In this document: piece by piece, positions 1 through 10,585 of the stretch
Position numbering within the stretch: position 1 is the first letter of the stretch
Layout: each line of letters opens with the position of its first letter
From: Azonexus sp.
Lineage (GTDB): Bacteria > Pseudomonadota > Gammaproteobacteria > Burkholderiales > Rhodocyclaceae
DNA: 12,762 bases
Assembly: GCA_031285115.1 (NCBI GenBank)
Contig: JAITWU010000322.1
Location: 1 to 12,762 of the forward strand
Direction: 5' to 3'
Position numbers and translations under genes: made by a program
Notes under the pieces: model-generated
Told to the model about the DNA's origin: nothing
Database searches by the model: none
The model's input: only the letters and a program-made list of their open reading frames with translations

Positions 1-261
1 CATATGGAAAACGTACACATCGGCGTTGTCTCGGAGGACGGCATTGCATTTGTCCCCGATTCAACTCAGGAAGATCAACTGCCCGCCGGCGACGGTGCGC
101 TGGAAGAGGAACAGACGGAAACGCCTGACATCATGGACGGCGTTATCGGCGAGACCATCCCGCGCACCGTCGCCGGCGGGCAGTTGATCTTCCTGAGTTG
201 AATCGGGGACAAATGCAATGCCGTCCTCCGAGACAACGCCGATGTGTACGTTTTCCATATG
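1..261. repeat. 100-bp perfect inverted repeat with 61-bp spacer
   Basis: Bases 1-100 are the exact reverse complement of 162-261, with a unique 61-bp spacer (101-161). The left arm starts at the first base of the window, so the repeat may extend beyond it. Each arm carries the same reading frame beginning MENVHIGVVSEDGIAFVPD, outward-in on both strands. Read on the plus strand, the frame crosses the spacer as a plausible acidic peptide; read on the minus strand, the spacer gives a basic, unlikely peptide. This could be a foldback chimera at a contig end, a real inverted duplication, or an invertible segment. The sequence shows the repeat itself beyond doubt; its cause is open. Confidence 0.95.
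61..258 (-). CDS. 5' part of an unrecognised gene, cut by the inverted repeat
   Basis: The minus-strand ATG at 258 has a good ribosome-binding site (AAGGAA, 7 bases upstream) and sits behind the conserved leader at 262-346, so a gene truly starts here. The first 32 residues (MENVHIGVVSEDGIAFVPD and onward) fall within the repeat arm. Beyond about position 162 the frame enters the spacer and then the opposite arm, and its sequence no longer looks natural; the spacer reads better in the opposite orientation (containing EEEQTETPDIMDG). The genuine gene therefore probably continues with the inverted spacer and then past the left edge. I do not recognise the family. The stop at 61-63 is likely an artefact of the repeat. 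Confidence 0.45.
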   Translation of the reverse strand: MENVHIGVVSEDGIAFVPDSTQEDQLPAGDGARDGLADNAVHDVRRFRLFLFQRTVAGGQLIFLS

Positions 262-346
262 GAATTTCCTTGTTGAATGGAAAGCGCGGGCACAACGGCA
301 ACCCCAGCGGGCAGCGTTGCGACCCGCAGGGGTTGAATAATGAAAA
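262..346 (-). promoter_or_regulatory. Conserved two-hairpin leader, copy 1 (gene at 258)
   Basis: In coding direction: a pyrimidine-rich tract, CAACCCC (335-329), then a GC hairpin. The stem pairs CAACCCC/GGGGTTG (299-305 with 329-335), an A-A mismatch, then GCGGG/CCCGC (307-311 with 323-327), with an 11-base loop. A second hairpin, TTTCC/GGAAA (265-269 with 279-283, 9-base loop), places the AAGGAA ribosome-binding site in its 3' strand. The same plan recurs in seven other leaders in this window. Confidence 0.75.
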
Positions 347-383
347 GGTGCGCCGTCCTGGAAAGAACGTCGCAGAGGTTGAA

Positions 384-1049
384 TCAGACGGTCAGCAAGC
401 CATCGCGCACACCTTGGCTCACGTACCGCAGAAAGTGATCGGTGATACTGATGCGCATCGCCTCAATTCCACCCAAGGGCGGATAGTTCGGTTCATCAAG
501 CCGCTTGTAAGCGTCCTTTTCCAGACACCAGTCCTGCAAGGACGCTCGCCAGTCATCAAGCAGCGCCACCGGCGAGAGCTGGCAGGTCATGGCCCAGGCA
601 CGCTCCAGCAGCAACTGCTGAACCTGTTCCTGATCCTGTCCCGCCAGCGTGCGGTGCAGCACCCAGCCAATCCGGTTGGCCCGGTCGGCCTGCTCGAAAG
701 CGGCGTCATAAATCCAGGTTTGTGACAGCGGCCCGAATACGTTCTGTCGCGGCAAGCGTCCCGAAAACTTGGACAGTTGTCCGGCTGATCCGGCTTCAAC
801 GAGGTGATGCTCCCCATCTTCACCTTTGAGGTGAAAACGGGTCACGCCGCCTTCCTTGACTCCGAGTTCCAACGCGGCCAGAAACTGCATCACAACACCG
901 TCGCGGCCATAGAACGAGAGGAATTTCAATTGCCCTTCGCTGTTGCGCAAACAGGCGTCGGCGAACAGTTCGGGGAATTCCTCGATGCGATACAAAAAAA
1001 TGGGCGGTGGCGCGTCGCGCTGGCCGCCCCCGGTTGATTGAATTGCCAT
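384..1049 (-). CDS. Hypothetical ICE-associated protein, 221 aa
   Basis: The chosen start, ATG at 1049 (MAIQSTGGGQRDAPPP), has AGGA 8 bases upstream; a longer frame opens at 1073 but has no ribosome-binding site. It lies 20 bp after the stop of the 129-residue gene upstream, with no conserved leader between, so the two are probably co-transcribed and may work together. The protein is soluble, mixed alpha/beta in composition, with no signal peptide or membrane segment. The N-terminus is Gly/Pro-rich, followed by FLYRIEEFPELFADA and a central Gly-rich FHLKGEDGEHH stretch. I see no catalytic motif. It resembles the conserved hypothetical proteins carried by PAGI-type elements, but I cannot name a family. 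Confidence 0.8.
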   Translation of the reverse strand: MAIQSTGGGQRDAPPPIFLYRIEEFPELFADACLRNSEGQLKFLSFYGRDGVVMQFLAALELGVKEGGVTRFHLKGEDGEHHLVEAGSAGQLSKFSGRLPRQNVFGPLSQTWIYDAAFEQADRANRIGWVLHRTLAGQDQEQVQQLLLERAWAMTCQLSPVALLDDWRASLQDWCLEKDAYKRLDEPNYPPLGGIEAMRISITDHFLRYVSQGVRDGLLTV

Positions 1050-1069
1050 GATGTGATTCCTGAAGAAGC

Positions 1070-1459
1070 TCAAGCATGGTTGGCGGCACGATCGGCGTGA
1101 TACGCGCGAACCTTATTTCGCCACTCCGCACTTTGCTCGGGTGCCATGTCCAGGTAAGACAAGGGACACGAGAAGTAGAACGGGTGCATGGTTTCACCCA
1201 GCGATGCATATCCCCATTGACCCTTGTGACAATCGAGCAAATCGCAACGTATCAATCGTATGAACTGGCCCGGTGCCAGATCCTTGAGCGCACCTTTCTG
1301 CTTCGCGGTAAGTTCGGCGACCGACCACAACACACCGTAATCGCCTTCGTGGCAAATGGCATGGGCTATGGTTTTGCAGCTAACCTGCTCTGTGTCATAA
1401 GGCTTGGTGAGATCTCGAATCAATTCCTCACGAGATTCATTTTTGAAAAGCCAACCCAT
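1070..1459 (-). CDS. Conserved ICE hypothetical protein (MGWLF..., 129 aa)
   Basis: Starts at ATG 1459 with AGGAG 6 bases upstream; an in-frame codon at 1510 lies inside the leader and is rejected. The protein opens MGWLFKNESREELIRDLTKP and has a central LWSVAELTAKQKG, a Cys-containing RFIRCDLL-like segment (FIRLIRCDLLDCHKGQWGY), and a C-terminal MHPFYFSCPLSYLDMAPE / SAEWRNKVRAYH block. This overall pattern matches small conserved hypothetical proteins that I recall from proteobacterial mobile elements (possibly the DUF6927 group, not certain). Biochemical role unknown. The Cys and Trp-rich C-terminus suggests a compact folded domain. It leads a probable two-gene unit with the 221-residue gene and carries leader copy 2. 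Confidence 0.85.
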   Translation of the reverse strand: MGWLFKNESREELIRDLTKPYDTEQVSCKTIAHAICHEGDYGVLWSVAELTAKQKGALKDLAPGQFIRLIRCDLLDCHKGQWGYASLGETMHPFYFSCPLSYLDMAPEQSAEWRNKVRAYHADRAANHA

Positions 1460-1460
1460 G

Positions 1461-1526
1461 ATGGGCTCCTTTGAAAATAGCGAGGCAGCCCTTGCGGGGG
1501 CATGCCCCACAGGGTTGATGAGAAGG
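1461..1526 (-). promoter_or_regulatory. Conserved two-hairpin leader, copy 2 (gene at 1459)
   Basis: The GC hairpin pairs AGCCCT/AGGGTT (1487-1492 with 1511-1516) and GGGG/CCCC (1496-1499 with 1505-1508). The ribosome-binding-site hairpin pairs GGGCT/AGCCC (1463-1467 with 1487-1491) and CCT/AGG (1468-1470 with 1483-1485) with a one-base bulge, burying AGGAG. The two stems compete for bases 1487-1491, so only one can form at a time. Confidence 0.75.
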
Positions 1527-1544
1527 TTTGCTTGGCTATACGTT

Positions 1545-1937
1545 TCAGGCAGCTTCGGCTAGCCCGACAGACGGAATCTGGTTAGCGGCCTGCTGGGCAT
1601 AGTGATTGGCGATGCGTGTTTTAAGGCCATCGACCTCGGCCATCGCAAGCGCTGTTTCGTGCTGGAGACGAACAGCTTTTTCGGTAATGCGCGTTACTGT
1701 GTTGGCCAACAAATTGGCAGAAAAATCACCGCGCCCTGGACGAGTGCTAAATACGTGGCAAACCATGCCGTTTTCAACGATGGTTGAAACGCTGGCGTTG
1801 CTGACCAATTGACCATACGTGTTCCTGCGTGTCGATATGGTCAGTATTCGATTGTTCTCCAGAGGCGTTTCTGTCTTGGCTGTCCAGCCATCTTTGGTCC
1901 TGCTTACAAAGCCTACCAAAGCATCAAAGTTTTCCAT
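1545..1937 (-). CDS. ICE hypothetical protein, 130 aa; paralogue of the 2403-2774 product
   Basis: ATG at 1937 with AAGGAG 7 bases upstream. The N-terminal half is a beta-rich repeat-like domain: KDGWTAKTETPL, RILTISTRR, and a Ser/Thr-rich strand NASVSTIVENG. The C-terminal half is helical (about residues 77-118, with VTRITEKAVRLQHETAL). The same order and key residues appear in the neighbour at 2403-2774 (SGWRAETRQPL, RVLRVITRR, EQTVRRQHQQVL), showing an old tandem duplication. The pattern is one I associate with orphan proteins in Pseudomonas-type ICEs, and no function is known to me. No membrane segment or signal peptide. Transcribed behind leader copy 3. Confidence 0.85.
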   Translation of the reverse strand: MENFDALVGFVSRTKDGWTAKTETPLENNRILTISTRRNTYGQLVSNASVSTIVENGMVCHVFSTRPGRGDFSANLLANTVTRITEKAVRLQHETALAMAEVDGLKTRIANHYAQQAANQIPSVGLAEAA

Positions 1938-1938
1938 G

Positions 1939-2002
1939 TTTGCTCCTTGAAAGATGTGGAGCGGCCCCGTGTGGGTACGCGCCCCACGGGGTTGATGAAG
2001 AT
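1939..2002 (-). promoter_or_regulatory. Conserved two-hairpin leader, copy 3 (gene at 1937)
   Basis: The GC hairpin pairs CCCCGTG/CACGGGG (1965-1971 with 1985-1991), a one-base bulge at 1972, then GGG/CCC (1973-1975 with 1982-1984). The ribosome-binding-site hairpin pairs GCTCC/GGAGC (1942-1946 with 1958-1962), with an 11-base loop, and buries AAGGAG. The tract before CAACCCC reads TCTTCAT in the coding direction. Confidence 0.8.
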
Positions 2003-2006
2003 GCCT

Positions 2007-2024
2007 GGATCACCAGGGTGACCC
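2007..2024 (-). terminator. Hairpin between the 70-aa gene and leader copy 3
   Basis: GGATCACC (2007-2014) pairs with GGTGACCC (2017-2024), with a 2-base loop. One pair is G-U in minus-strand RNA but a mismatch in plus-strand RNA, which argues for function on the minus strand. The pyrimidine tract that follows is short, so termination is uncertain. A very similar hairpin occurs at 2846-2863. Confidence 0.45.
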
Positions 2025-2077
2025 GGTACGTTTCAAAGGCTGAACGCACCCTCAAACCATTGCTCTGATCATGCGAC

Positions 2078-2123
2078 GGTTTGCCCCGATCACCTCGCCC
2101 TGGCGAGGAAATCCGGGCAAGCC
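2078..2123. other. Long near-perfect hairpin in intergenic DNA
   Basis: A stem running from 2078 to 2123. TTGCCCCGAT (2081-2090) pairs with ATCCGGGCAA (2111-2120) with one C-C mismatch; a symmetrical two-base internal loop follows; CCTCGCC (2093-2099) pairs with GGCGAGG (2102-2108). Three further outer pairs are possible. There is no T-run on either side. It lies in the 170-bp gap after the 70-residue gene. It could be a structured RNA, a REP-like element, or a Rho-independent barrier without a U-tract. Confidence 0.6.
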
Positions 2124-2193
2124 TTCGCCTGCCGTAAGTTGAAGATCAAGGTGGTCAATTTCAGAGAATTGTGGCAATACCTGTAAACCCACC

Positions 2194-2406
2194 CTATGCG
2201 CTATGAACTTGCTCGCAAAGACAAAATTCCCTCAACGCAGCAGCAGCCTCTTCAATATCGAATACAACCGCTGCTCGCCACGTATCCTTGCAATAAGCAC
2301 CAAAAATTCCGTCACAGTACGGAGAATCAGACCGAAACCCGGCATCAATTTCCTTGTGTAATCGACTCAAAGCAGCCCGGCAATCATCAGCAGTGAGATA
2401 TTTCAT
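2194..2406 (-). CDS. Small hypothetical protein, 70 aa, translationally coupled
   Basis: The start codon overlaps the stop of the upstream gene in an ATGA (2403-2406), and GGAAAGG lies upstream inside that gene, so translation is probably coupled. The protein, MKYLTADDCRAALSRLHKEI and onward, is an acidic helical protein with five cysteines and an Ala/Glu-rich helix near the C-terminus (DIEEAAAALREFCLCEQ). No known domain recognised. A much longer frame upstream (to 2601) lies antisense to nothing real but overlaps the neighbour in another frame and has no ribosome-binding site. Confidence 0.75.
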   Translation of the reverse strand: MKYLTADDCRAALSRLHKEIDAGFRSDSPYCDGIFGAYCKDTWRAAVVFDIEEAAAALREFCLCEQVHSA

Positions 2407-2774
2407 GATGTCGCCTTTCCATATTTCGACGTGAAATGCTCGGACAGGTAGGTTTGCAGGTTTTCCAGAAATCCTAGGACTTGCTGGTGTTGACGGCGTA
2501 CCGTTTGCTCCGAGACACTTGCAACATTGCGCATAACATTGAAATGAAGTTCTATGTTCGCATTCGGTTCGGTATGAACATATGGGATGGTGCAATGACA
2601 AAGTTCCCCACTCTCATTGACCTTCATGAGAAAAGCCGAAGATGTGAGTACCTTGCGATCGTGACCTATCCTACGTGTTATCACCCGCAGCACCCTACTT
2701 CCGCCTAGCGGCTGGCGCGTTTCTGCACGCCATCCTGACTGTTCTTTTTTGACGATGGTTACAGATGTTTCCAT
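2403..2774 (-). CDS. ICE hypothetical protein, 123 aa; paralogue of the 1545-1937 product
   Basis: ATG at 2774 (METSVTIVKKEQSGWRAETR) with AAGGAA 10 bases upstream. The frame opens earlier, at 2852, but that part is the leader. It shares with the 130-residue neighbour the order GWxAxTxxPL, RVLxxxTRR, a Ser/Ala strand, an acidic turn before a hydrophobic-Cys-His segment (GELCHC versus GMVCHV), and a C-terminal helix with a TVRRQHQ-type core. The first gene of a coupled pair with the 70-residue ORF. No function known; soluble, no signal peptide. Confidence 0.85.
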   Translation of the reverse strand: METSVTIVKKEQSGWRAETRQPLGGSRVLRVITRRIGHDRKVLTSSAFLMKVNESGELCHCTIPYVHTEPNANIELHFNVMRNVASVSEQTVRRQHQQVLGFLENLQTYLSEHFTSKYGKATS

Positions 2775-2775
2775 G

Positions 2776-2840
2776 ATTTTTTGTTCCTTAAAAAACGAAG
2801 CGGCCCCATGCGGGATCGCGCCCCGCGGGGTTGAGGAAAA
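2776..2840 (-). promoter_or_regulatory. Conserved leader, copy 4 (gene at 2774)
   Basis: The GC hairpin pairs CCCC/GGGG (2804-2807 with 2827-2830), a two-base bulge, then GCGGG/CCCGC (2810-2814 with 2822-2826). In coding direction it is followed by CGTTTTTT and then AAGGAA. The ribosome-binding-site hairpin is weak here (CTT/AAG around the U-run), the poorest of the eight copies. The GC hairpin with a nearby U-run could also act as an attenuator. Confidence 0.65.
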
Positions 2841-2863
2841 ATTCAGGATCACTGTGGTGATCC
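2837..2863 (-). terminator. Terminator-like hairpin after the methyltransferase gene
   Basis: GGATCAC (2846-2852) pairs perfectly with GTGATCC (2857-2863) around a 4-base loop. In the minus-strand transcript TTTTT (2841-2837) follows after four bases. It sits 15 bp past the stop codon at 2878, directly before leader copy 4. The spacing to the U-run is longer than ideal, so it may be partial. Confidence 0.5.
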
Positions 2864-2877
2864 GTTAGGCTTGAAAC

Positions 2878-4020
2878 TCAGGCGATCTTGATGATCTGCC
2901 CGCGCCGCTGGCCGGCGGTGAGTTCGATCGCATTGATGACCGGCACAAACTTGTCGAGAAGAACGATGGTCTGGCTGACCTCGCCCTGATCATTGACTTC
3001 CGAGTTCACGGTGCGCTGTTTGGTTTTGAAGGTGTCGCCCTTGATGAGAAACTCGCGCCCTTCGACCGAATGAATGCGGCCCTGTATCTGACCGGCAGCC
3101 AACGACAGCGCCAGGTGCCAGGGTGTCATTTCGCGCAAGGGTGGCCGGCAAGCGGCCTTGACTTGGTTGAAATGCACTTCAAGACTGGGCCACAGCAGGC
3201 TGTTATTCAAGCGCCGCAATTCATCGCCGAGTTGCGGCGCGTCGATGCGCACGGCATGGAAGGTGAATTCCTGACCCGGCTCAATCGCCGGTATCTGGTA
3301 CGGTTCATCCTCCCAGCTTTCGGGCAGTACGGGCGTTAGCTCAGGTTTTTCTTTGGCCTGCACCAGCATGTCAAGAACGGCTTTACTGGCGTTGGCCGAG
3401 CGTCGTCGCACCCCAACCACCACGCATTGCTTGAAACGCTGCTCGGGAGCCATGAAGACCCGCACGCGGTCATAGTTGCGCGCCAAGTGGGCGCGGATGT
3501 CATCATCGAGCGCATAGAACGGGATGATGTAAACCAGGATGCCGCCATAGGCGATCAAGGGCGTGGCCATGCGCAGGAAGGTTCGCTCCAGTCGCTCGGC
3601 CTTGGCATGATCGAGTTCGGCCGAGCTTACGTTGGCGCCGTCCTTGACACCATAACCATAGGGCGGATTGAGAAACATCAGGCCGATCGAGCGCGCCTTG
3701 ACCACCACGTCGTTCAGATCGGAATGGATCACACGGTCGAGAATGGTCTTGGCGTGCCAGGCTCGTTCGGAATCGAGTTCCACGCCCAGGGTTTCAAGCT
3801 GCGGCGGATCGCCGTCGGGATGATCGAGTCGCGCCTGATCGCGCAGCCCCTGCTCGATGTCGGCCAAGGCGGTGCCTTCACCACAACACGGATCAAACAA
3901 ACGCGCTGGGCTGCGCTGTGCGCACAACAGATGGGTGATGCAGCCCACGGTATCTTCATCGGTCGGGAAATATCCGTTCTTAATGAAATTGCGGGCCAGT
4001 CGAGAGAACATGAGTGCCAT
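2878..4020 (-). CDS. N6-adenine DNA methyltransferase-like protein (DUF6094-type), 380 aa
   Basis: A class I SAM-dependent methyltransferase. The SAM-binding motif I is FDPCCGEGTALADI (about residues 42-55), an acidic motif II is GVELDSE (79-85), motif III is SDLND (100-104), and the catalytic motif IV is NPPY (118-121), the signature of amino-methyltransferases acting on adenine. The region after 230 lacks recognised motifs and may contact DNA or partners. ICEs of this type carry such orphan methyltransferases with no restriction enzyme; they may protect the element from host restriction or mark it, which is inference. ATG at 4020 has GGAG 8 bases upstream; the first residues MALMFSRLARNF fit. 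No restriction gene adjoins. Transcribed behind leader copy 5. Confidence 0.85.
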   Translation of the reverse strand: MALMFSRLARNFIKNGYFPTDEDTVGCITHLLCAQRSPARLFDPCCGEGTALADIEQGLRDQARLDHPDGDPPQLETLGVELDSERAWHAKTILDRVIHSDLNDVVVKARSIGLMFLNPPYGYGVKDGANVSSAELDHAKAERLERTFLRMATPLIAYGGILVYIIPFYALDDDIRAHLARNYDRVRVFMAPEQRFKQCVVVGVRRRSANASKAVLDMLVQAKEKPELTPVLPESWEDEPYQIPAIEPGQEFTFHAVRIDAPQLGDELRRLNNSLLWPSLEVHFNQVKAACRPPLREMTPWHLALSLAAGQIQGRIHSVEGREFLIKGDTFKTKQRTVNSEVNDQGEVSQTIVLLDKFVPVINAIELTAGQRRGQIIKIA

Positions 4021-4090
4021 CGTTGAGTCTCCAAAGAATTGGACGGCACCGGCCCAGACGGGCTGGTTCCCGTCCGGGGTTGAGAAAAAG
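4021..4090 (-). promoter_or_regulatory. Conserved two-hairpin leader, copy 5 (methyltransferase)
   Basis: The GC hairpin pairs CCC/GGG (4053-4055 with 4076-4078), a mismatch, then GACGGG/CCCGTC (4057-4062 with 4069-4074). The ribosome-binding-site hairpin pairs TCCAA/TTGGA (4030-4034 with 4039-4043) around a 4-base loop and covers the GGA of GGAGA. In coding direction TTTTTCTCAACCCC starts the leader. Confidence 0.8.
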
Positions 4091-4125
4091 AACTGCTGAT
4101 CTGTTCAAGGGAACAGAGTAATCAG
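4085..4125 (-). terminator. Terminator-like hairpin overlapping the stop codon of the small membrane protein
   Basis: TCTGTTC (4100-4106) pairs perfectly with GAACAGA (4111-4117), loop AAGG; CTGAT/ATCAG (4096-4100, 4121-4125) can extend it past a bulge. In minus-strand RNA, TTTTT (4089-4085) follows six bases after the stem. The TGA of the upstream gene (4107-4105) lies at the loop edge. Confidence 0.5.
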
Positions 4126-4299
4126 AACAATAATAAAAATCGCAGCGATTAAGCACGCGCCGATCACCAGCTTGTCCTGCCACTGCATCGGAGCCGGACG
4201 CAGGTCCTCGTCAAATACGGGTTGTAATGGCAGGTCGCCCGTAACACAGTCGAAGTTAGCCTCCTGTTTAACAGGGGGGGATACGTGTGAGTGATTCAT
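4105..4299 (-). CDS. Small single-pass membrane protein, 64 aa
   Basis: ATG at 4299 (MNHSHVSPPVKQEANFDCVT) with GGAG nearby in the ribosome-binding-site hairpin. Residues 1-43 are polar and acidic with PPV and PAPMQWQDK; residues 44-63 form one strongly hydrophobic helix (LVIGACLIAAIFIIVLITLF), and the protein ends Pro. There is no signal peptide; the N-terminus is expected in the cytoplasm, with a tail anchor. No family recognised. A role at the membrane, such as entry exclusion or conjugation accessory, is only a guess. It is preceded by 500 bp without a convincing gene, containing leader copy 6 and a candidate structured RNA. Confidence 0.75.
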   Translation of the reverse strand: MNHSHVSPPVKQEANFDCVTGDLPLQPVFDEDLRPAPMQWQDKLVIGACLIAAIFIIVLITLFP

Positions 4300-4372
4300 G
4301 ATCGTCTCCAAAAAAAATGGAGACGACCGGCCCCGTCGGGGACGATAGTCCCCATGGGGTTGATGAAAAGAA
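4300..4372 (-). promoter_or_regulatory. Conserved two-hairpin leader, copy 6 (small membrane protein)
   Basis: The clearest copy. The ribosome-binding-site hairpin pairs CGTCTCC (4303-4309) with GGAGACG (4319-4325) perfectly, with a loop that in minus-strand RNA is A followed by eight U. The Shine-Dalgarno GGAG is fully paired. The GC hairpin pairs CCCC/GGGG (4331-4334 with 4356-4359) and GGGGAC/GTCCCC (4338-4343 with 4348-4353). Confidence 0.85.
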
Positions 4373-4373
4373 A

Positions 4374-4392
4374 ATTGCCTGGCCTTACGGCC
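4374..4392 (-). terminator. Small GNRA-loop hairpin followed by U-rich tract
   Basis: In the minus-strand transcript GGCC-GTAA-GGCC (4392-4381) is followed by AGGCAATTTTC. The four-base stem is short but has a stable GNRA tetraloop. It marks the boundary between the hairpin-rich region and leader copy 6. Confidence 0.35.
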
Positions 4393-4436
4393 CCGCGCAC
4401 TTGCAAGGCTGAGTGCGCCTGAAATCATCTTCGGTT

Positions 4437-4534
4437 TGAGCGATGGTTTCCCTGAACGCCCTGCCCTTGTTCTTGGCCGCTGAGGAGCGGCTCTGACAAG
4501 GAACTGGACACTCAGGGAACCCATCGCGGGTTCC
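4437..4534. ncRNA. Candidate structured RNA with nested helices and an alternative hairpin
   Basis: An outer stem pairs 4440-4455 with 4512-4527 (15 of 16 pairs). Inside are CCTTGT/ACAAGG (4465-4470 with 4496-4501) and GCCGCT/AGCGGC (4476-4481 with 4486-4491, loop GAGG). A competing perfect hairpin, GGAACCC/GGGTTCC (4516-4522 with 4528-4534, loop ATCGC), uses the 3' strand of the outer stem, so the two folds exclude each other. No convincing reading frame crosses the region. It lies upstream of the small membrane protein on the minus strand, so it may be part of its leader or an independent RNA; an origin or oriT-like DNA structure is another option. Direction not proven. Confidence 0.5.
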
Positions 4535-4799
4535 GGGAGTTTGAATGACACGTTTGAGGCTGCTCCTGGCTGTGCTTGAAACACATGCCTCGCACCGATA
4601 CGGAGCCCAGATGCGTGCAGGAAAGGCGCGCCAGTCACGCACGGGCTTGGCTCTAGCCCACGCGTGCTCGGTCGCAAAGCCGCGGCAGCATCAGGTCTGC
4701 CGCCACCCAAGTTTGTAATGCTGTCCCGTTACGGGCTGTCGTTTGCGCAGATCATCTGCGCAAGCGGCAACCCGCGCCAGGCGGGATGTCGAAAAAGCG
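4535..4799. other. Gene-free region with several inverted repeats
   Basis: No frame here has a plausible start and protein-like composition. It holds GGGCT/AGCCC within GCAC/GTGC (about 4635-4667), GCGGCAG/CTGCCGC (4682-4688 with 4697-4703), CCCG-TTA-CGGG (4726-4736), and a 21-base near-palindrome of two 10-base arms around 4753 (4743-4763). CCCGC/GCGGG-type pairing near 4770-4785 lies just past the toxin-antitoxin stop codon and could serve as its terminator. The density of dyads would also suit an operator or replication/transfer origin, but I see no iterons. Confidence 0.5.
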
Positions 4800-5135
4800 C
4801 TATGCCGATTGAAGTGCTGGCTCAGGCTGGGTGTGTGCAATAGGCTGGACAGCCAAGCGCATGCCCATGGCGTTGAGTATCGAGGTCAAACTCTTGAGTT
4901 CAGGATTACCTTGAACGGAGAGAGTCCTGTAGAGAGTTTTTGCGTTGAGTTCAGCTTGCTCAGCCAGCTTGGAAACGCCACCGAAGGCCAGCGCCAGACG
5001 ACGCAGTGTAAGCATCAGCTCTTGCTGATCGCCATCTTCGAGGACGGCGTTCAGTAATTCCGCTGCGTACTCTGGGTCTTTACGCAATCCTTCGATAACG
5101 GCTTCTTCATGGGGACGAGATGGCGGGAATGGCAT
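4800..5135 (-). CDS. HigA-type (XRE) antitoxin of toxin-antitoxin module 1, 111 aa
   Basis: Antidote of a RelE-type toxin and, by family, the DNA-binding autorepressor of the operon. A helix-turn-helix lies at about residues 42-77: LTLRRLALAFGGVSKLAEQA then LNAKTLYRTLS, followed by LKSLTSILNAMGMRLAVQ, the pattern of probable addiction module antidote proteins. The N-terminus (MPFPPSRPHEEAVIEGLRKD) is the toxin-contacting type. ATG at 5135 with GGAGG 5 bases upstream; it overlaps the toxin stop by one base (TGATG), so the two are translated together. Toxin-first order is typical of the HigBA group. Longer frame to 5303 rejected. Confidence 0.9.
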   Translation of the reverse strand: MPFPPSRPHEEAVIEGLRKDPEYAAELLNAVLEDGDQQELMLTLRRLALAFGGVSKLAEQAELNAKTLYRTLSVQGNPELKSLTSILNAMGMRLAVQPIAHTQPEPALQSA

Positions 5136-5461
5136 CACAACCTCCGTACACGTTGCTGATAGTCTTCCCAGTAGCCGATGGCGCGGTCGATGTCGGCGTC
5201 CTGAGTACTCTTGTCGCCGCCGCAAAGCAGCAGCACGATGGTTTGACCGGTCTGGGCGTAGTACACCCGGTAACCCGGTCCAAAGTCGATCTTGATCTCC
5301 CATACACCCTTGCGGGTCGCGCGTACTGTGCCCAGATTACCTTGAACAATTCGGTCAACCCGACGTTCAATGACCGTCTTGGTTTTAGCATCACGCAGGG
5401 AGTCAAACCACTCTTGGTATACGTCAAACCCATCTTGGGTCACGTAATGTTTGATTTCCAT
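5135..5461 (-). CDS. RelE/ParE-family toxin of module 1, 108 aa
   Basis: A small toxin of the addiction module killer type, related to HigB/RelE mRNA interferases that act on the ribosome. Diagnostic segments are the N-terminal EIKHYVTQDGFDVYQEWFDS, the middle VWEIKIDFGPGYRVYY, and the C-terminal VLLLCGGDKSTQDADIDRA. Full length for the family. ATG at 5461 has only a weak upstream AGGCG; expression may be low, as is usual for a toxin. The gap to the DUF3275 gene is 42 bp, with no conserved leader and no clear promoter. The module is complete and looks active. A host mobile element would gain maintenance from it. Confidence 0.9.
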   Translation of the reverse strand: MEIKHYVTQDGFDVYQEWFDSLRDAKTKTVIERRVDRIVQGNLGTVRATRKGVWEIKIDFGPGYRVYYAQTGQTIVLLLCGGDKSTQDADIDRAIGYWEDYQQRVRRL

Positions 5462-5503
5462 GTTTCATTATTCGCCTAAAAGCGACTCCGTGCAACTCAA
5501 GCT

Positions 5504-6151
5504 TCAGACCGGATGGAAGGTTTGATCGCCCTTATCGAACCAGTAATCCAGTTCGTTTTTGAGGTAGAACGCCTGGGTGCGCAATCGCAGCCTGTCGATC
5601 GACGTATCGAGTTTGATGGGCTGACGACTTTCGATCAAGGCACACAAGTCTTCGGTAAATAGTGCTCGCAGTTTGTCCTGCGTTGCTTGGGCTTGCTCTG
5701 GTGTATCAAGAGTAGCGGGTTCATTGCTTTTTGGGTCAGGGTTCCGACCTCGCCCAATCGCCATCAGTTTGCTCTTGAGAGCACCAAGCTCTTTATTCCG
5801 TGTTTGAGGAACAGGTTTTACTGTGACTGGCGGCGTTTCATCCAGAGGGTCCGGCTCGCCTGCTGTATTGTTTTCGGTGCGATCAATGTCGGCTTGCTCT
5901 TCGCCCCTGACTTGCAAGTCTTGCAGCTTGGCCCGGATCTCGGTAAGCACCCAACCCGCCTCGGTAACGTAGGTTCCCGGATAAATGTGAACAATCCAGG
6001 CTGTGACTTGGAAGTTGCCCTCATCAAACGGTTCGAGCACCTGATCCTTGACTTTGAAATTTCCGATGCCCGTAATCAGGGTGCCAACGGAAAAAGGACC
6101 GTTGCGGGATTGAATTTTTTTGACGCGCAGGGTGCCATCAACTTTGATCAT
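5504..6151 (-). CDS. DUF3275 family ICE protein, 215 aa
   Basis: Begins MIKVDGTLRVKKIQSRNGPF followed by VGTLITGIGNFKVKD and GNFQVTAWIVHIYP, the conserved N-terminal domain (about residues 1-85) that I know as DUF3275, found almost only in integrating conjugative elements of proteobacteria. The middle (about 90-150) is polar, with acidic and Pro-rich stretches and a likely disordered linker. The C-terminal about 60 residues, EQAQATQDKLRALFTEDLC onward, are helical and end in QTFHPV. Function unproven; its usual company with the DUF3577 replication protein suggests element maintenance. ATG at 6151 has AGGA upstream; the first codons of the longer frame (from 6184) lie in the leader. Confidence 0.85.
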   Translation of the reverse strand: MIKVDGTLRVKKIQSRNGPFSVGTLITGIGNFKVKDQVLEPFDEGNFQVTAWIVHIYPGTYVTEAGWVLTEIRAKLQDLQVRGEEQADIDRTENNTAGEPDPLDETPPVTVKPVPQTRNKELGALKSKLMAIGRGRNPDPKSNEPATLDTPEQAQATQDKLRALFTEDLCALIESRQPIKLDTSIDRLRLRTQAFYLKNELDYWFDKGDQTFHPV

Positions 6152-6235
6152 GTCGTGTTCCTTTTGTGAATGCAGCGGACGCACGACGGCCCCTTGAGGG
6201 ACGTTGCGTCCCGCATGGGGTTTGGAGGAAAAAAG
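6152..6235 (-). promoter_or_regulatory. Conserved two-hairpin leader, copy 7 (DUF3275)
   Basis: The GC hairpin pairs CCCC/GGGG (6190-6193 with 6217-6220) and GGGACG/CGTCCC (6198-6203 with 6207-6212). The ribosome-binding-site hairpin pairs GTCGTG/CACGAC (6152-6157 with 6182-6187) and TCC/GGA (6159-6161 with 6177-6179), burying AGGA. It follows directly on a strong terminator (6229-6266), yet no promoter is visible between, so read-through or antitermination may be needed. Confidence 0.8.
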
Positions 6236-6266
6236 CTATTCGCACCACGTCCGAAGACGTGATGCG
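6229..6266 (-). terminator. Strong UUCG-loop terminator
   Basis: In minus-strand RNA an 11-bp stem (6266-6256 with 6251-6241) closes a UUCG tetraloop; one pair is G-U on this strand only. AATAGC and six T (6234-6229) follow. This is the best intrinsic terminator of the left half. It would end transcripts coming from the 93-residue gene or the hairpin-rich stretch. Confidence 0.8.
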
Positions 6267-6419
6267 GATAGAGGCTGGGAGTCAAGAACCAGATTTCCGA
6301 TCCGGTTCTAAATGTGAAGGGTGCTCTGAACCTGCTCGTTTAGGGTTCGGTAGGGTGCAGGGTGCCTTCAAGATGCCCTGACCTGCAAGCAGGCGTCCGG
6401 TTATCAAGGGCTGAACCGG
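6229..6419 (-). ncRNA. Candidate small RNA: string of hairpins ending in a terminator
   Basis: Reading on the minus strand there are five successive stems: CCGGTT/AACCGG (6397-6402 with 6414-6419), CCTGC/GCAGG (6382-6386 with 6389-6393), GAACC/GGTTC (6328-6332 with 6344-6348), a GAACC-GAT/ATC-GGTTC stem with one mismatch (6286-6294 with 6300-6308), and the UUCG terminator. The repeated GAACC/GGTTC blocks could re-pair. A 64-codon frame (6282-6476) overlaps this but has no proper ribosome-binding site and low-complexity C-terminal composition. Transcript start not identified. Confidence 0.4.
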
Positions 6420-6504
6420 CTCGTGCACAGGTTTGAACGTGACACCTGTAAACACGCGGAAAACGGTATCGAGCATACCACCGCTTGAACAAGTACCAGC
6501 TTGA

Positions 6505-6786
6505 CTATGTCTGCTCGTTTTGCGGAAAAGGCTGGTACCCGTGTGTGTCAGCAACCTCAAGTTCCCATCCCCACGTTCCCAGAAGGTTTGCCGCCCGCAG
6601 GGCGGTTTCCTGCCGTTCGGTGAGGGCTTGCTCGTGGGTGTGCCAATGCCCGTAGAAGTATCTTTCGTGGAAATCATGAACGATAAAAATGATGAAGAGC
6701 GTCCTGCCTTCTGTCGCCGTGTGAAACGACATAGCGCCCTTGGGAATATCTATACCCGCCTGTTTGAGGGTTTCGATGTTGCTCAT
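6505..6786 (-). CDS. Hypothetical protein, 93 aa
   Basis: ATG at 6786 (MSNIETLKQAGIDIPKGAMS) with AGGAG 7 bases upstream. The fold seems compact: LFIIFIVHDFHERYFYGHWH gives a beta-strand then an aromatic and His-rich turn (four His in about 14 residues), followed by a helix (EQALTERQETALRAANLL) and WGWELEVADTHGYQPFP. The His cluster might bind metal, but no known motif matches. It is the first gene below the terminator of the DUF3577 unit, so it needs its own promoter; only a weak TATAAG is visible upstream. Family not recognised. Confidence 0.75.
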   Translation of the reverse strand: MSNIETLKQAGIDIPKGAMSFHTATEGRTLFIIFIVHDFHERYFYGHWHTHEQALTERQETALRAANLLGTWGWELEVADTHGYQPFPQNEQT

Positions 6787-6870
6787 TTTGAATCTCCTGC
6801 TTATACAAGGCACCGCATTCCGCGATGCGTGTTCGTCTGGATTGAGGACGTCAACTACAACGCATGACAT

Positions 6871-6910
6871 AAAACAACCCCCGGCCGCAGAAGCGGCTCA
6901 GGGGTTGTGT
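6871..6910 (-). terminator. Strong terminator after the DUF3577 gene
   Basis: ACAACCCC (6874-6881) pairs with GGGGTTGT (6901-6908), and inside it GCCGC/GCGGC (6884-6888 with 6893-6897) around a 4-base loop. In the minus-strand transcript TTTTATG follows at once. It lies 12 bp past the stop codon at 6923. Confidence 0.85.
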
Positions 6911-6922
6911 CACGGAGACGGT

Positions 6923-7609
6923 TTAGTAAGGGATGTAATCGTCGTCTGCTTCGTATGCAGGTTCACCATTCATCTCCTCATCGCCACCGGTCGCTGCCGG
7001 TGCGCCCTGTGCGGGACGCGCGGCGCTTTGGCTCTGGGGCTGCTCTGCAGGCTTGCGGTTTTCCGGGACGGCGCTTTGAGCCGTTTGAGGATCACCTTGA
7101 GCTTGCTGCTGGCCTGTTTTGTCTTGGTCGTTGCGCTCGAGTTGATAGTACAACTCACCATTGACCTTGAGCTTGTAGATGAGTAACAGCCGCCCTTTAA
7201 TCTGTACAGCGATTTCCCGCCGGCCAGTGGGCTCCTTGTTTTCATCGTACTCATCACGCTCGTAGGTGATGGGAGTAGCGTCACCGATTTTGAAATGGCC
7301 AAAGATTTTGTCCTTGGCATCGCATGTAAGCTTAAGAGACTCGATCAGTTCGATCGCCTTCTTGCCCACAACACGCACATCGTATGTCGCGTAACTCGGG
7401 TTATCACACGAACCATATAACGCTTTAATCGTGACCCACCATGACGGCGGCCCCTTGCGATTGCCTTTATTGACCGATACTTTCCGAATGCGGTTGAAAT
7501 AACCAATACCCGTGGTGTGCAGGTCGAAATAGTCTTTGCCTTGCTGGGCTTGGGTTTGTTGGACTTGAGCTTGGGCTTGGGTCTGAGATTGAACTTGCTG
7601 GTTAGCCAT
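6923..7609 (-). CDS. DUF3577 (STY4534-family) ICE replication protein, 228 aa
   Basis: The N-terminal 26 residues are a Gln-rich linker (QVQSQTQAQAQVQQTQAQQG). The conserved domain follows: DYFDLHTTGIGYFNRIRKVS, a Trp-Trp pair (PPSWWVTIKALYG), YATYDVRVVG, HFKIGDATPITY, and LLIYKLKVNGELYYQLE, to about residue 166. This is the pattern of the STY4534/DUF3577 family, named as an ICE replication protein; the OB-like beta-rich layout recalls single-strand-binding proteins, which is inference. The C-terminal tail is Gln/Ala/Pro-rich and ends acidic (ADDDYIPY), like the partner-binding tails of SSB. ATG at 7609 with GGAG 6 bases upstream; a TTG at 7621 is rejected. It has its own promoter, a 177-nt leader and a terminator, so it is a single-gene unit. 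Confidence 0.9.
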   Translation of the reverse strand: MANQQVQSQTQAQAQVQQTQAQQGKDYFDLHTTGIGYFNRIRKVSVNKGNRKGPPSWWVTIKALYGSCDNPSYATYDVRVVGKKAIELIESLKLTCDAKDKIFGHFKIGDATPITYERDEYDENKEPTGRREIAVQIKGRLLLIYKLKVNGELYYQLERNDQDKTGQQQAQGDPQTAQSAVPENRKPAEQPQSQSAARPAQGAPAATGGDEEMNGEPAYEADDDYIPY

Positions 7610-7715
7610 GATGATCTCCAAAAAAATGGACAGGAGACCGGCATAACCAAGCCAAGCCGCAAGGCCAGGACAGGGAAAGCTGATTCCCCGTCCGGGTTGC
7701 AGTTAAAGATGCTCT
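7610..7715 (-). promoter_or_regulatory. Conserved two-hairpin leader, copy 8 (DUF3577)
   Basis: The most diverged copy. GGAC/GTCC (7668-7671 with 7690-7693) and GGG/CCC (7673-7675 with 7686-7688) form the GC hairpin after TGCAACCCGG. The ribosome-binding-site hairpin pairs GATCTCC/GGAGACC (7613-7619 with 7633-7639); one pair is G-U only in minus-strand RNA, and the loop holds seven U. A candidate RNA motif named after DUF3577 has been published; whether this is that motif needs a covariance search. Confidence 0.7.
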
Positions 7716-7792
7716 GTGACGGCCTTGGGAGCCAATCAGTACGCATTCCAAGAGCTGATGCGTCGCGTGTGCCTTGCGGCAGTCACGGCACC

Positions 7793-8772: not shown

Positions 8773-9108
8773 TCAAACGGTTGCGAGTGTCAGGTGTCCA
8801 ACCGGCTCAGATGCCGGTCGCACCTTGATTTCGATGTCGTAGCCGAGGCGATTCAGACAGTCCATTAGCTTGCGCTCGGACAGATTGGTGAAGTCGCCGC
8901 GCATCATGCCCGACACCTTTGGTTGCGGGATGCCCATGCGTTTGGCTGCCGCTTGTTGCGTCAGACCGAGGGCACGCATCGCTTTCCTGATCTCGATCAC
9001 TAGGCCGGATTTAATTTTGAGCTTTTCAGCATCAGGCAGGCCAAGGTCGGCGAAGACGTTGCCCGAGCTGGTTTCTACCTCAATGCCTTCAATCATGCGC
9101 TTAGCCAT
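8773..9108 (-). CDS. HigA-type (HTH) antitoxin of module 2, 111 aa
   Basis: ATG at 9108 (MAKRMIEGIEVETSSGNVFA) with AAGGAG 7 bases upstream. A helix-turn-helix of the XRE type lies at about residues 50-78: LTQQAAAKRMGIPQPKVSGM followed by MRGDFTNLSERKLMDCLNRL, and the tail is IEIKVRPASE. This layout (short N-terminal extension, HTH, short beta tail) is that of HTH_37-class antitoxins, which neutralise Gp49/HigB-type toxins and repress their own operon. It overlaps the toxin by 8 bp, so they are co-translated. An unlikely start at 9126 is rejected. Confidence 0.9.
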   Translation of the reverse strand: MAKRMIEGIEVETSSGNVFADLGLPDAEKLKIKSGLVIEIRKAMRALGLTQQAAAKRMGIPQPKVSGMMRGDFTNLSERKLMDCLNRLGYDIEIKVRPASEPVGHLTLATV

Positions 9109-9466
9109 GTTGTAACTCCTTTGCAAGCGCCTCGGCTGTCTTTAACCTGGCGCGAATAATGTCCATGTCCTCTTTCGGCGTGGCGATCCCGCTCTTGCTC
9201 TTCTTCTGGAAGCAGTGCAGGACAAATATCGCTTCCGCAAACTTCACCGTATAGACCGCCCGGTACGTGCCACCGATATCGTCCTCGACGATCTCCAGCA
9301 CACCGGCACTGCCGAAGCCCTTGAGCGCCTTGGCCGCGTCGTGCTGGCCGCCGTGCTGCGCGAAATCCAGGGCGTGACCAAAAAACTTCCGCACATCAAG
9401 CGGAAGCGCCATCAGATCCCTTTTGCTGCTCCCGATCCAGACGAGTCGTTTTTCTTTGTCAATCAT
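9101..9466 (-). CDS. RelE/ParE-family (Gp49/HigB-like) toxin of module 2, 121 aa
   Basis: Recognisable by KRLVWIGSSKRDLMALPLDV at the N-terminus, the middle VLEIVEDDIGGTYRAVYTVK and AIFVLHCFQKKSKSGIATP, and the C-terminal helix ARLKTAEALAKEL: the pattern of phage-derived Gp49-like toxins, which act on translation in studied members. Full length. ATG at 9466 has no good ribosome-binding site; instead it overlaps the stop of a 39-codon ORF in ATGA, and a TATAAA lies 8 bases upstream, so translation may be coupled or the message nearly leaderless. Toxin precedes antitoxin, as in HigBA. Confidence 0.9.
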   Translation of the reverse strand: MIDKEKRLVWIGSSKRDLMALPLDVRKFFGHALDFAQHGGQHDAAKALKGFGSAGVLEIVEDDIGGTYRAVYTVKFAEAIFVLHCFQKKSKSGIATPKEDMDIIRARLKTAEALAKELQHG

Positions 9467-9609: not shown

Positions 9610-9843
9610 AGAAGCGGACGCTTCGACATGAACCGGCTCAAAGAGGCAATGCTGCTGCTGATTGCCAATGACGGCCCGCTTGGGCCGGAGTGGAAGGATC
9701 ATCCGTTGCACGGAACGCAATGGAAAGACTATCGTGAGTGCCACATTGGCGGGGACTTTCTGCTGGTCTATCGCATTGAGGCCGGCAAGTCACGCGAAGA
9801 AGTTGGCTTCTCCCGCGCAGGCACGCACAACTGGGCGATCTGA
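9610..9843 (+). pseudogene. yafQ: N-terminally truncated YafQ-family toxin
   Basis: The only convincing plus-strand coding sequence. From about 9610 it reads RSGRFDMNRLKEAMLLLIAN, then WKDHPLHG, WKDYRECHIGGDFLLVYRIE and GTHNW, which follows YafQ proteins closely. The key His residues (DHPL, ECHI, GTH) and the Asp before FLLVY are kept. The first 20 or so family residues and any DinJ/RelB antitoxin are missing upstream, and no ribosome-binding site is present, so it is very likely dead. It probably remains from an older insertion cut by the arrival of module 2. Confidence 0.75.
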
Positions 9844-9909
9844 CGTTCGGCGGCAAGGTCGTTGCTGGTCAGATCAGGGTAAAGAGAACTGGAGTCAGGC
9901 ACTTTATTC

Positions 9910-10320
9910 TCAAGCTTTCTGTTCGAATGGATTGAGCAGCTCCACATCAAAATGCCTGAAATCTGAAACGTTGCGCGTAACCACCACCAGCCGATGACAA
10001 ATTGCTGTGGCGGCGATCATGGCATCTTCGTACAACGTATCGGAGCGCCGGTGCATCAGCCTAGCCCAGACCCTGAAAGCCCGCTCATCCATCGGCAAGA
10101 CGTTGTACGCTGCCGGCAACGCATCGGCCCAATGCTCAATTTGATCGGCTTTTTGGCGATCCTGCTCACGGGTCAACTCAATGCCCGCCTGAATTTCCCC
10201 AAGGCTGACAGCGGAAACGTGCAGATCCTTGTCGGCCACGGTTTCGAGCCAGGCCAGAACTGCCCCGTGCGGGCGTGGCCGGCGCAGTTCGGAAATGACG
10301 TTGGTATCCAGCAGATACAT
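9910..10320 (-). CDS. vapC: VapC-type PIN-domain toxin of module 3 (FitB-like), 136 aa
   Basis: A PIN-domain ribonuclease. The acidic metal-binding residues are in place: Asp5 in LLDTNV, Glu42 in SLGEIQ, Asp99 in YEDAMIAATA, and Asp120 in VTRNVSDF. The N-terminal MYLLDTNVISELRRPRPHGA and the phrase DTLYEDAMIAATA fit the FitB/VapC subgroup found with Phd- or FitA-type partners. In studied relatives the target is tRNA or rRNA; the target here is unknown. ATG at 10320 with GAGG just upstream, 7 bp after the antitoxin stop. Complete and intact. Confidence 0.92.
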   Translation of the reverse strand: MYLLDTNVISELRRPRPHGAVLAWLETVADKDLHVSAVSLGEIQAGIELTREQDRQKADQIEHWADALPAAYNVLPMDERAFRVWARLMHRRSDTLYEDAMIAATAICHRLVVVTRNVSDFRHFDVELLNPFEQKA

Positions 10321-10327
10321 GGTCACC

Positions 10328-10585
10328 TCAAGCAATAGATTCAACCTGCCGGCGGCGTCCTCTACCGCGCTTGGGCACCAACTCGTCAGTGCGCGCCTCT
10401 GGAGCCAGCAGCCATTGCTTGAGGCTTGGCCGCACTTGCATCTGCATCTGCTGCCATACCTGCGCGGGCACCAAAACCGCGGCCTCAGCACCCCTGCGCG
10501 TGACCAGTTGCGGCCCGTCGGAAAGGCAGGTATTCAAGAGTTCACTGAAGCGCATTTTTGCCTCCAGCACGGACCAAGTTTTCAT
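10328..10585 (-). CDS. Phd/YefM-family antitoxin of module 3, 85 aa
   Basis: The N-terminus MKTWSVLEAKMRFSELLNTC followed by PQLVTRRGAEAAVLVPAQVW is the Phd/YefM DNA-binding domain (about residues 1-50); the C-terminal part (RPSLKQWLLAPEARTDEL) is the toxin-binding tail, ending in a very basic KRGRGRRRQ. It neutralises the PIN toxin and should repress the operon by binding upstream. AGGA lies 9 bases before the ATG at 10585; it is inside a small ATCCT/AGGAT hairpin. Antitoxin-first order, unlike modules 1 and 2. Confidence 0.92.
   Translation of the reverse strand: MKTWSVLEAKMRFSELLNTCLSDGPQLVTRRGAEAAVLVPAQVWQQMQMQVRPSLKQWLLAPEARTDELVPKRGRGRRRQVESIA

Follow-up and report, generated by a model that had tools for sequence, protein, structure and literature searches.

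A candidate translational RNA switch with a gene-specific third helix before genes of MPF_G-type integrative and conjugative elements

The closest known design to the leaders described here is found in two RNA switches of the gonococcal genetic island, before traH and parA, each of which consists of two stem-loops with the second hiding the Shine-Dalgarno sequence (SD) and the AUG (PMC8716806). As reported there, the start of traH is freed by a rival fold that arises once the upstream part of stem-loop 1 is not available, deletion of the inner legs raised the output of a parA reporter more than 10-fold in E. coli and some 400-fold in gonococci, and no rival fold was found for parA. These switches are two single cases, and the island that carries them is mobile and has a type IV secretion system; the present leader, also carried by mobile elements, is one design before many genes. 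The stretch of DNA analyzed, hereafter the window, is one whole contig of 12,762 bases (G000:C359; GenBank JAITWU010000322.1) from the fragmented 2.6-Mb genome of Azonexus sp., in which the original prediction, made from sequence, had assigned a shared two-hairpin leader to eight unrelated genes. We consider it likely that each leader forms a self-contained RNA switch for translation, built from four strands, M, M', A and S, and that integrative and conjugative elements (ICEs) of the MPF_G type carry the same switch before many unrelated genes; any particular trigger is proposed with less confidence.

The shared leader was confirmed by a covariance model, R2, for which 58 leaders from other elements were used and the window was excluded; it comprises five outer pairs of hairpin 1 (H1) and twelve pairs of hairpin 2 (H2). 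R2 ranked exactly the eight predicted leaders as the best matches in the window, and the ninth-best match (E 0.0055) was the reverse strand of one of them. All eight starts (258, 1459, 1937, 2774, 4020, 4299, 6151 and 7609, on the minus strand) are ATG codons opening open reading frames (ORFs) of 64-380 codons. The R2 match ended at the ATG in seven leaders and extended nine bases beyond it at 4020. The folding z against 300 dinucleotide shuffles was -3.3 on average for the eight leaders (individually -1.0 to -5.8), and that of 300 random window 70-mers was -0.5 (standard deviation 1.3). As had been claimed, the stems vary in sequence while pairing is kept, and the three toxin-antitoxin modules of the window (4800-5461, 8773-9466 and 9910-10585 by Pfam) lack the leader, with no R2 match at the starts of any of them. 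The proposed CAACCCC motif is exact in five leaders (258, 1937, 2774, 4020 and 4299) but reads CAACCCT at 1459, CAACCCG at 7609 and AAACCCC at 6151, and the closing GGGG, said to be followed often by CCG, gives GGGGCCG in four of the eight (1937, 2774, 4299 and 6151). CAACCCC also occurs at 6907, in a terminator-like hairpin (6863-6911, minus strand) that ends in TTTT just past the DUF3577 stop codon; its sequence resembles the H1 motif, and it was rejected as a ninth leader.

The two-hairpin description misses the main point, a third helix joining the 5' arms of the hairpins. The four strands follow in the order M, M', A, S, where H1 is M:M' and H2 is A:S. M comprises the 5' arm and loop of H1, A is the 5' arm of H2 and pairs with the SD region (S), and M resembles S and is complementary to A gene by gene. 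This M:A helix is the new feature here. Among the eight window leaders, the true M:A assignment ranked best of 40,320. M:A was also gene-specific in 192 leaders (Z -26) and in 77 held-out leaders (Z -17), and the control pairing M':S gave a Z of -0.6 in the 192. In the window, M:A is better kept than A:S; the second hairpin, which had been predicted to end in the ribosome-binding site, reaches an A:S energy of -10 kcal/mol or lower in four leaders (1937, 4299, 6151 and 7609) but is weak (-2.5 to -5.7) in the other four. RNAalifold on its own picked the M:A helix together with a partial H1 in a first covariance model (R1), which was set aside so that the model covers H1 and H2 only and M:A is kept outside it. 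The sequence statistics show that each of the three helices is specific to its gene and oriented with it, and that they run up to the start codon. Since M:M' plus A:S (closed) and M:A (open) are mutually exclusive, the leader has the design of a translational switch.

Removing look-alikes (those more than 0.88 similar) left 193 of 269 filtered sites, and segmentation left the 192 leaders, which still include a few false sites. The near copies L025 and L030 were excluded, and the 7609 leader is absent because of the CCC...GGG rule, although it was included in the window M:A test. The held-out set was derived from 113 matches, of which 101 were full-length and ended in ATG and 77 were non-redundant and segmented. 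As for the relatives themselves, DUF3577 was present in 15 of 274 class genomes, and an alignment query gave 427 in named genomes, from which 80 loci were kept. Leaders of a similar kind could be seen ahead of many ORFs in these relatives, and the 58 used for R2 were drawn from them. A contig search with the window protein as sole query confirmed no relative, and one locus came from viral contigs.

R2 gave 438 matches at E up to 0.5 in 82 loci, and among the 300 listed nearly all shared the strand of the DUF3577 gene. Of 408 R2 matches from 70 sources, the best 150 were aligned; in 146 of these 150, an ORF of 50 codons or more starts at the model end, compared with 54% of 2,486 SD-preceded ATGs in the same loci. 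Seven plasmid stretches with annotation gave 32 full-length plus-strand matches (E up to 0.05), and 28 of them end exactly at the start of an annotated coding sequence; the genes behind them include STY4534/DUF3577 genes, two DNA cytosine methyltransferases and an antirestriction protein; a weaker match (E 0.1) precedes a RadC gene. The 141 complete proteins downstream of the best matches fell into 58 four-mer clusters. Unrelated families are fewer than 58, because DUF3577 proteins themselves split over several clusters. A same-strand ORF lies upstream of the leader in 143 of 148 cases, with a median gap of 68 nt. In the class sample, an R2 match (E up to 0.001) was found in 38 of 274 genomes, including all 15 with DUF3577 and 23 of the 259 others, and in the phylum sample in 19 of 299 genomes (E up to 1e-4); some genomes are common to both samples, and weak single matches in these lists may be false. 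In one genome of the same order (G107, contig C2, L178-L180), leader matches are scattered over a 320-kb contig and do not form one array.

The leaders may also spread between genes. The 7609 leader with about 130 bases upstream (window 7607-7740) is nearly identical, with two or three differences, to 2465-2561 of L173 on contig C234 of the same genome, where it precedes a 96-amino-acid ORF and not DUF3577. Since the near-identity stops at the ATG before a different ORF, a leader can be transferred together with its upstream region, as one unit, to another gene. This is the one clear example of the cassette-like expression units that had been suggested. Mean leader similarity was 0.549 for orthologues, 0.514 for different genes of one locus and 0.477 for different loci.

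We propose that in the closed state M:M' and A:S would form and bury the SD, whereas in the open state M would pair with A instead and leave S free. We take the closed state to be the probable default, since finished leaders favour it: in 177 of the 192, the closed fold matches or exceeds the open one in stability, and the minimum-energy fold includes three or more M:M' pairs in 164 leaders, A:S in 173 and M:A in 24. M:A would compete with H1 during transcription, before S exists, with the unpaired H1 loop as a possible entry point. In nascent leaders that stop short of the SD, M:A outcompetes H1 in 123 of 192, with a median of -1.6 kcal/mol. Near-equal rivals early and a closed end state later are what a co-transcriptional exchange needs. 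The outcome might be brief translation on new transcripts, or a point at which an element-encoded RNA-binding factor could tip the balance. We infer from the sequences that such an exchange would occur in cells and control translation.

On paper, the leader would work like the gonococcal switches, a likeness drawn from their description. In 173 of the 192 leaders the second stem-loop buries the SD, with an unpaired probability under 0.3, and in the window this stem-loop is strong in four leaders of the eight; a rival fold freeing the start is predicted in the form of the gene-specific M:A. The partners differ: the traH rival fold is reported to need the upstream part of stem-loop 1 to be unavailable, whereas here that part (M) would itself form the rival helix with A. 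In the type I toxin mRNA aapA3, short metastable hairpins hide the SD and are proposed to act during transcription (PMC6733600). Those hairpins prevent early translation of one toxin mRNA, whereas early structure in the leader would favour translation, and no antisense RNA is known for the leader. The logic of mutually exclusive helices around the anti-SD strand, with an anti-anti-SD helix, is that of translational riboswitches and is shared by the leader. The logo of the 192 leaders contained no conserved ligand-binding core; a short CA(A/C)CCC, GGGG and the SD are conserved, and the rest goes gene by gene.

Several results weigh against the proposed switch. In the held-out leaders two controls are not flat (M':S Z -4.0, M:S Z -2.2), and M:A is slightly in excess also at 200 other hairpin sites of the same loci (0.76 kcal/mol, Z -3.8). 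Fixed-column covariation in alignment A3 exceeded that of every one of 500 shuffles for the H1 outer stem (0.187 versus 0.103 shuffled) and H2 (0.271 versus 0.222), but for M:A (0.262 versus 0.230) 12 of 500 shuffles were as high, and M:A columns slid by one scored higher (0.294). Because of this slide, A3 alone would not prove M:A; loop lengths differ between leaders, and A3 was chosen for good A:S and is thereby biased toward H2 and not toward M:A. A:S is weak in four of the eight window leaders, and the minimum-energy fold already holds M:A in two of the seven window leaders folded (2774 and 258). With M' blocked in silico, only 15 of the 192 leaders had an open SD (unpaired probability over 0.5); because of the folding results, including this one, default repression with a transient or factor-assisted open state is favoured. 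In the gonococcal parA leader, weakening of stem-loop 1 lowered expression (PMC8716806). Finally, the sense and antisense strands of H1 alone are equally stable over the 192 leaders (p 0.49), and in the window the antisense of the whole leader is more stable in six of eight.

Three other explanations were weighed. Hairpin 2 could simply set a fixed level of translation, with hairpin 1 insulating or stabilising the RNA and M:A arising as a by-product of hairpin duplication. We regard this as unlikely, since M:A is gene-specific despite stems that differ between genes and is better kept than A:S in the window; duplication should also keep M':S, yet its Z in both leader sets is far weaker than that of M:A. 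Hairpin 2 might melt with heat, SD-burying hairpins being typical of RNA thermometers; alternatively, hairpin 1 might terminate transcription as an attenuator. Both are very improbable. H1 at about -20 kcal/mol and A:S at -13 on average (192 leaders) argue against them, and each leaves M:A unexplained. An intrinsic terminator or attenuator was rejected because H1 is not followed by a U-run: over the ten positions that follow H1 in the 192 leaders, the share of T is 15-47% at each, and G is commonest at the first five.

The leaders might also act as DNA, as hairpins in single-stranded DNA during transfer (a single-strand promoter, or a protein or recombination site), with the closeness to start codons being secondary. 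The conjugative nature of the host genes and elements, the equal stability of antisense hairpins, the copying of the 7609 leader block before another ORF, and the DUF3577 product, predicted to resemble single-stranded-DNA-binding protein (SSB) or PriB, would all fit. Since the antisense folds more stably in six of the eight whole leaders of the window, the strand comparison there does not favour RNA. As to the original prediction that several stems gain a G-U pair only in minus-strand RNA, four H1 stems (1459, 2774, 4020 and 7609) allow coding-strand G-U by eye. Over the larger set, whole leaders fold slightly better in the sense strand (p 0.03), and a register search that scores G-U and A-C alike gave G-U:A-C counts in own versus swapped pairs of 85:13 versus 862:304 for M:A (p 0.002), 67:40 versus 824:716 for H1 (p 0.041) and 42:29 versus 346:375 for H2 (p 0.047). 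This strand argument for RNA is modest, and the placement at the SD and AUG is the stronger reason: the leaders end at start codons with the SD within helix 2. In addition, the leader logo shows nothing shared beyond about 12 bases upstream of H1 (at most 0.11 bits per position). Together with the excess of G-U over A-C, these points make a DNA-level element improbable, slightly less so than a thermometer or attenuator.

A search of the window with Rfam 15 (4227 families, E up to 10) gave four matches, all below gathering scores; the best lies on a foldback at the contig end, and any overlap with the coding strand of a leader is by chance. The comparison with motifs named after DUF3577 and DUF3085 that had been recommended gave no Rfam match so named in this search, and Rfam may hold no such names. 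In 16 relatives (gathering level or E up to 5), only radC, RNA-OUT or group II intron matches were above threshold, and in six Pseudomonas loci only radC. The radC RNA (RF01754), like the leader, belongs to the 5' untranslated region (UTR) of genes carried by this kind of element (PMC2864571), but differs in its 149 positions, fold and conserved sequence. It was rejected as an identity of the leader, with no match in the window at E up to 10 and none in its genome in the class search, where radC RNA occurred in one of 274 genomes, versus 38 with the leader. The two adjoin each other in L022, L162 and the six Pseudomonas loci, and 11 of 12 radC matches examined have a leader match downstream on the same strand; one further radC match in the genome of L022 was left out of this count, and the twelfth (L022 13331-13476) has no leader among the matches listed. 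In L162, radC and leader together occupy 18395-18613, 19754-19979 and 23589-23807, with gaps of 2, 4 and 9 nt. In L022, the leader follows after 12 nt in one case and overlaps radC by 38 bases in another. The gap is 30 nt in L113 and 125 nt in the other five Pseudomonas loci (L066, L080, L087, L088 and L112), where this constant spacer lies at about 9800-9920. The radC RNA is thus a distinct neighbour linked to the leader, as read from sequence. Neither a description of the leader nor the phrase 'radC RNA' was found in the literature searched; subscription papers were mostly outside this search, and prior publication of the leader is possible.

The shared post-transcriptional signal of the original prediction is well supported by a strand shared with the gene, a 3' end that falls on the start codon, an SD within helix 2, stems that vary yet stay paired, and presence before unrelated genes, but co-regulation as a regulon was not shown. 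A bolder and rather doubtful extension is that MPF_G-type elements carry an element-wide translational regulon of private three-helix switches, each with an H1 loop copying its own ribosome-binding site, all opened by one common event or factor (element activation, arrival in a new cell, or an SSB-like element protein) although the stems share little sequence, with the orphan radC RNA as an optional upstream module of the same 5' UTR.

The leader-bearing genes, all on the minus strand, resemble the variable region of MPF_G-type ICEs (DUF3577, DUF3275 and DUF6094). The order DUF3577, DUF3275, DUF6094, helicase is also found on plasmid records of Comamonas aquatica and Nitrogeniibacter aestuarii, and a DUF3577 relative and leader matches also occur on ICEhin1056 and on pUM505, each of them typed as MOBH / MPF_G. 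Relatives of the DUF3577 gene are annotated as STY4534 family ICE replication protein, and its product is predicted to adopt an SSB/PriB-like OB fold. Window 1-260 is a foldback that aligns over its full length to its own reverse complement, with outer arms of about 100 bases near-perfect, and is probably an assembly fault rather than a real inverted repeat. The foldback, at the contig's left end, truncates the helicase gene that starts at 258; a complete 799-amino-acid helicase ORF with the same N-terminus lies at L173 9007-11406 on contig C234, preceded by the same leader and with integrase-like ORFs close by.

Table 1. Leaders and downstream genes in the window. R2 E-values were obtained with filters off; M:A and A:S are energies in kcal/mol.
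Feature	Coordinates	Strand	H1	A	SD to ATG	R2 E-value	M:A	A:S	Remark
Leader of gene at 258	256..339	-	302-332	271-301	256-270	1.8e-5	-18.9	-5.2	
Leader of gene at 1459	1457..1521	-	1489-1514	1470-1488	1457-1469	7.6e-7	-13.7	-3.1	
Leader of gene at 1937	1935..1998	-	1965-1991	1947-1964	1935-1946	7.2e-5	-15.1	-10.3	
Leader of gene at 2774	2772..2837	-	2804-2830	2789-2803	2772-2788	6.3e-6	-11.5	-2.5	
Leader of DUF6094 gene at 4020	4018..4086	-	4053-4078	4033-4052	4018-4032	5e-4	-16.1	-5.7	R2 match 4009-4086
Leader of small gene at 4299	4297..4366	-	4331-4359	4310-4330	4297-4309	5.3e-11	-12.7	-19.2	
Leader of DUF3275 gene at 6151	6149..6226	-	6190-6220	6163-6189	6149-6162	3e-7	-16.8	-12.8	
Leader of DUF3577 gene at 7609	7607..7703	-	7665-7696	7620-7664	7607-7619	3.9e-5	-18.7	-12.6	
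DEAD/DEAH-type helicase gene, start only	61..258	-							Truncated by foldback at contig end
Downstream gene	1070..1459	-							No Pfam match
Downstream gene	1545..1937	-							No Pfam match
Downstream gene	2403..2774	-							Pfam: nothing above cut-off
Downstream gene, DUF6094 methyltransferase-like	2878..4020	-							PF19587, E 5.9e-28
Downstream gene, 64-amino-acid protein	4105..4299	-							No Pfam match
Downstream gene, DUF3275	5504..6151	-							PF11679, E 6.9e-29
Downstream gene, DUF3577	6923..7609	-							PF12101, E 4.1e-32

Control of such elements has been studied mainly at transcription. In ICEclc, reporter output and transcript coverage were mismatched at two promoters, and further post-transcriptional control was suggested (PMC9286271). 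A repeated switch absent from Rfam could fill this post-transcriptional gap, and its presence before many mobile-element genes is probably a common but overlooked form of translation control. The radC RNA, listed in 2010 without a function (PMC2864571), gains a structural context. A loop that copies the gene's own ribosome-binding site is a design directly testable with reporters, and such a switch before many genes would give one handle on the whole accessory region.

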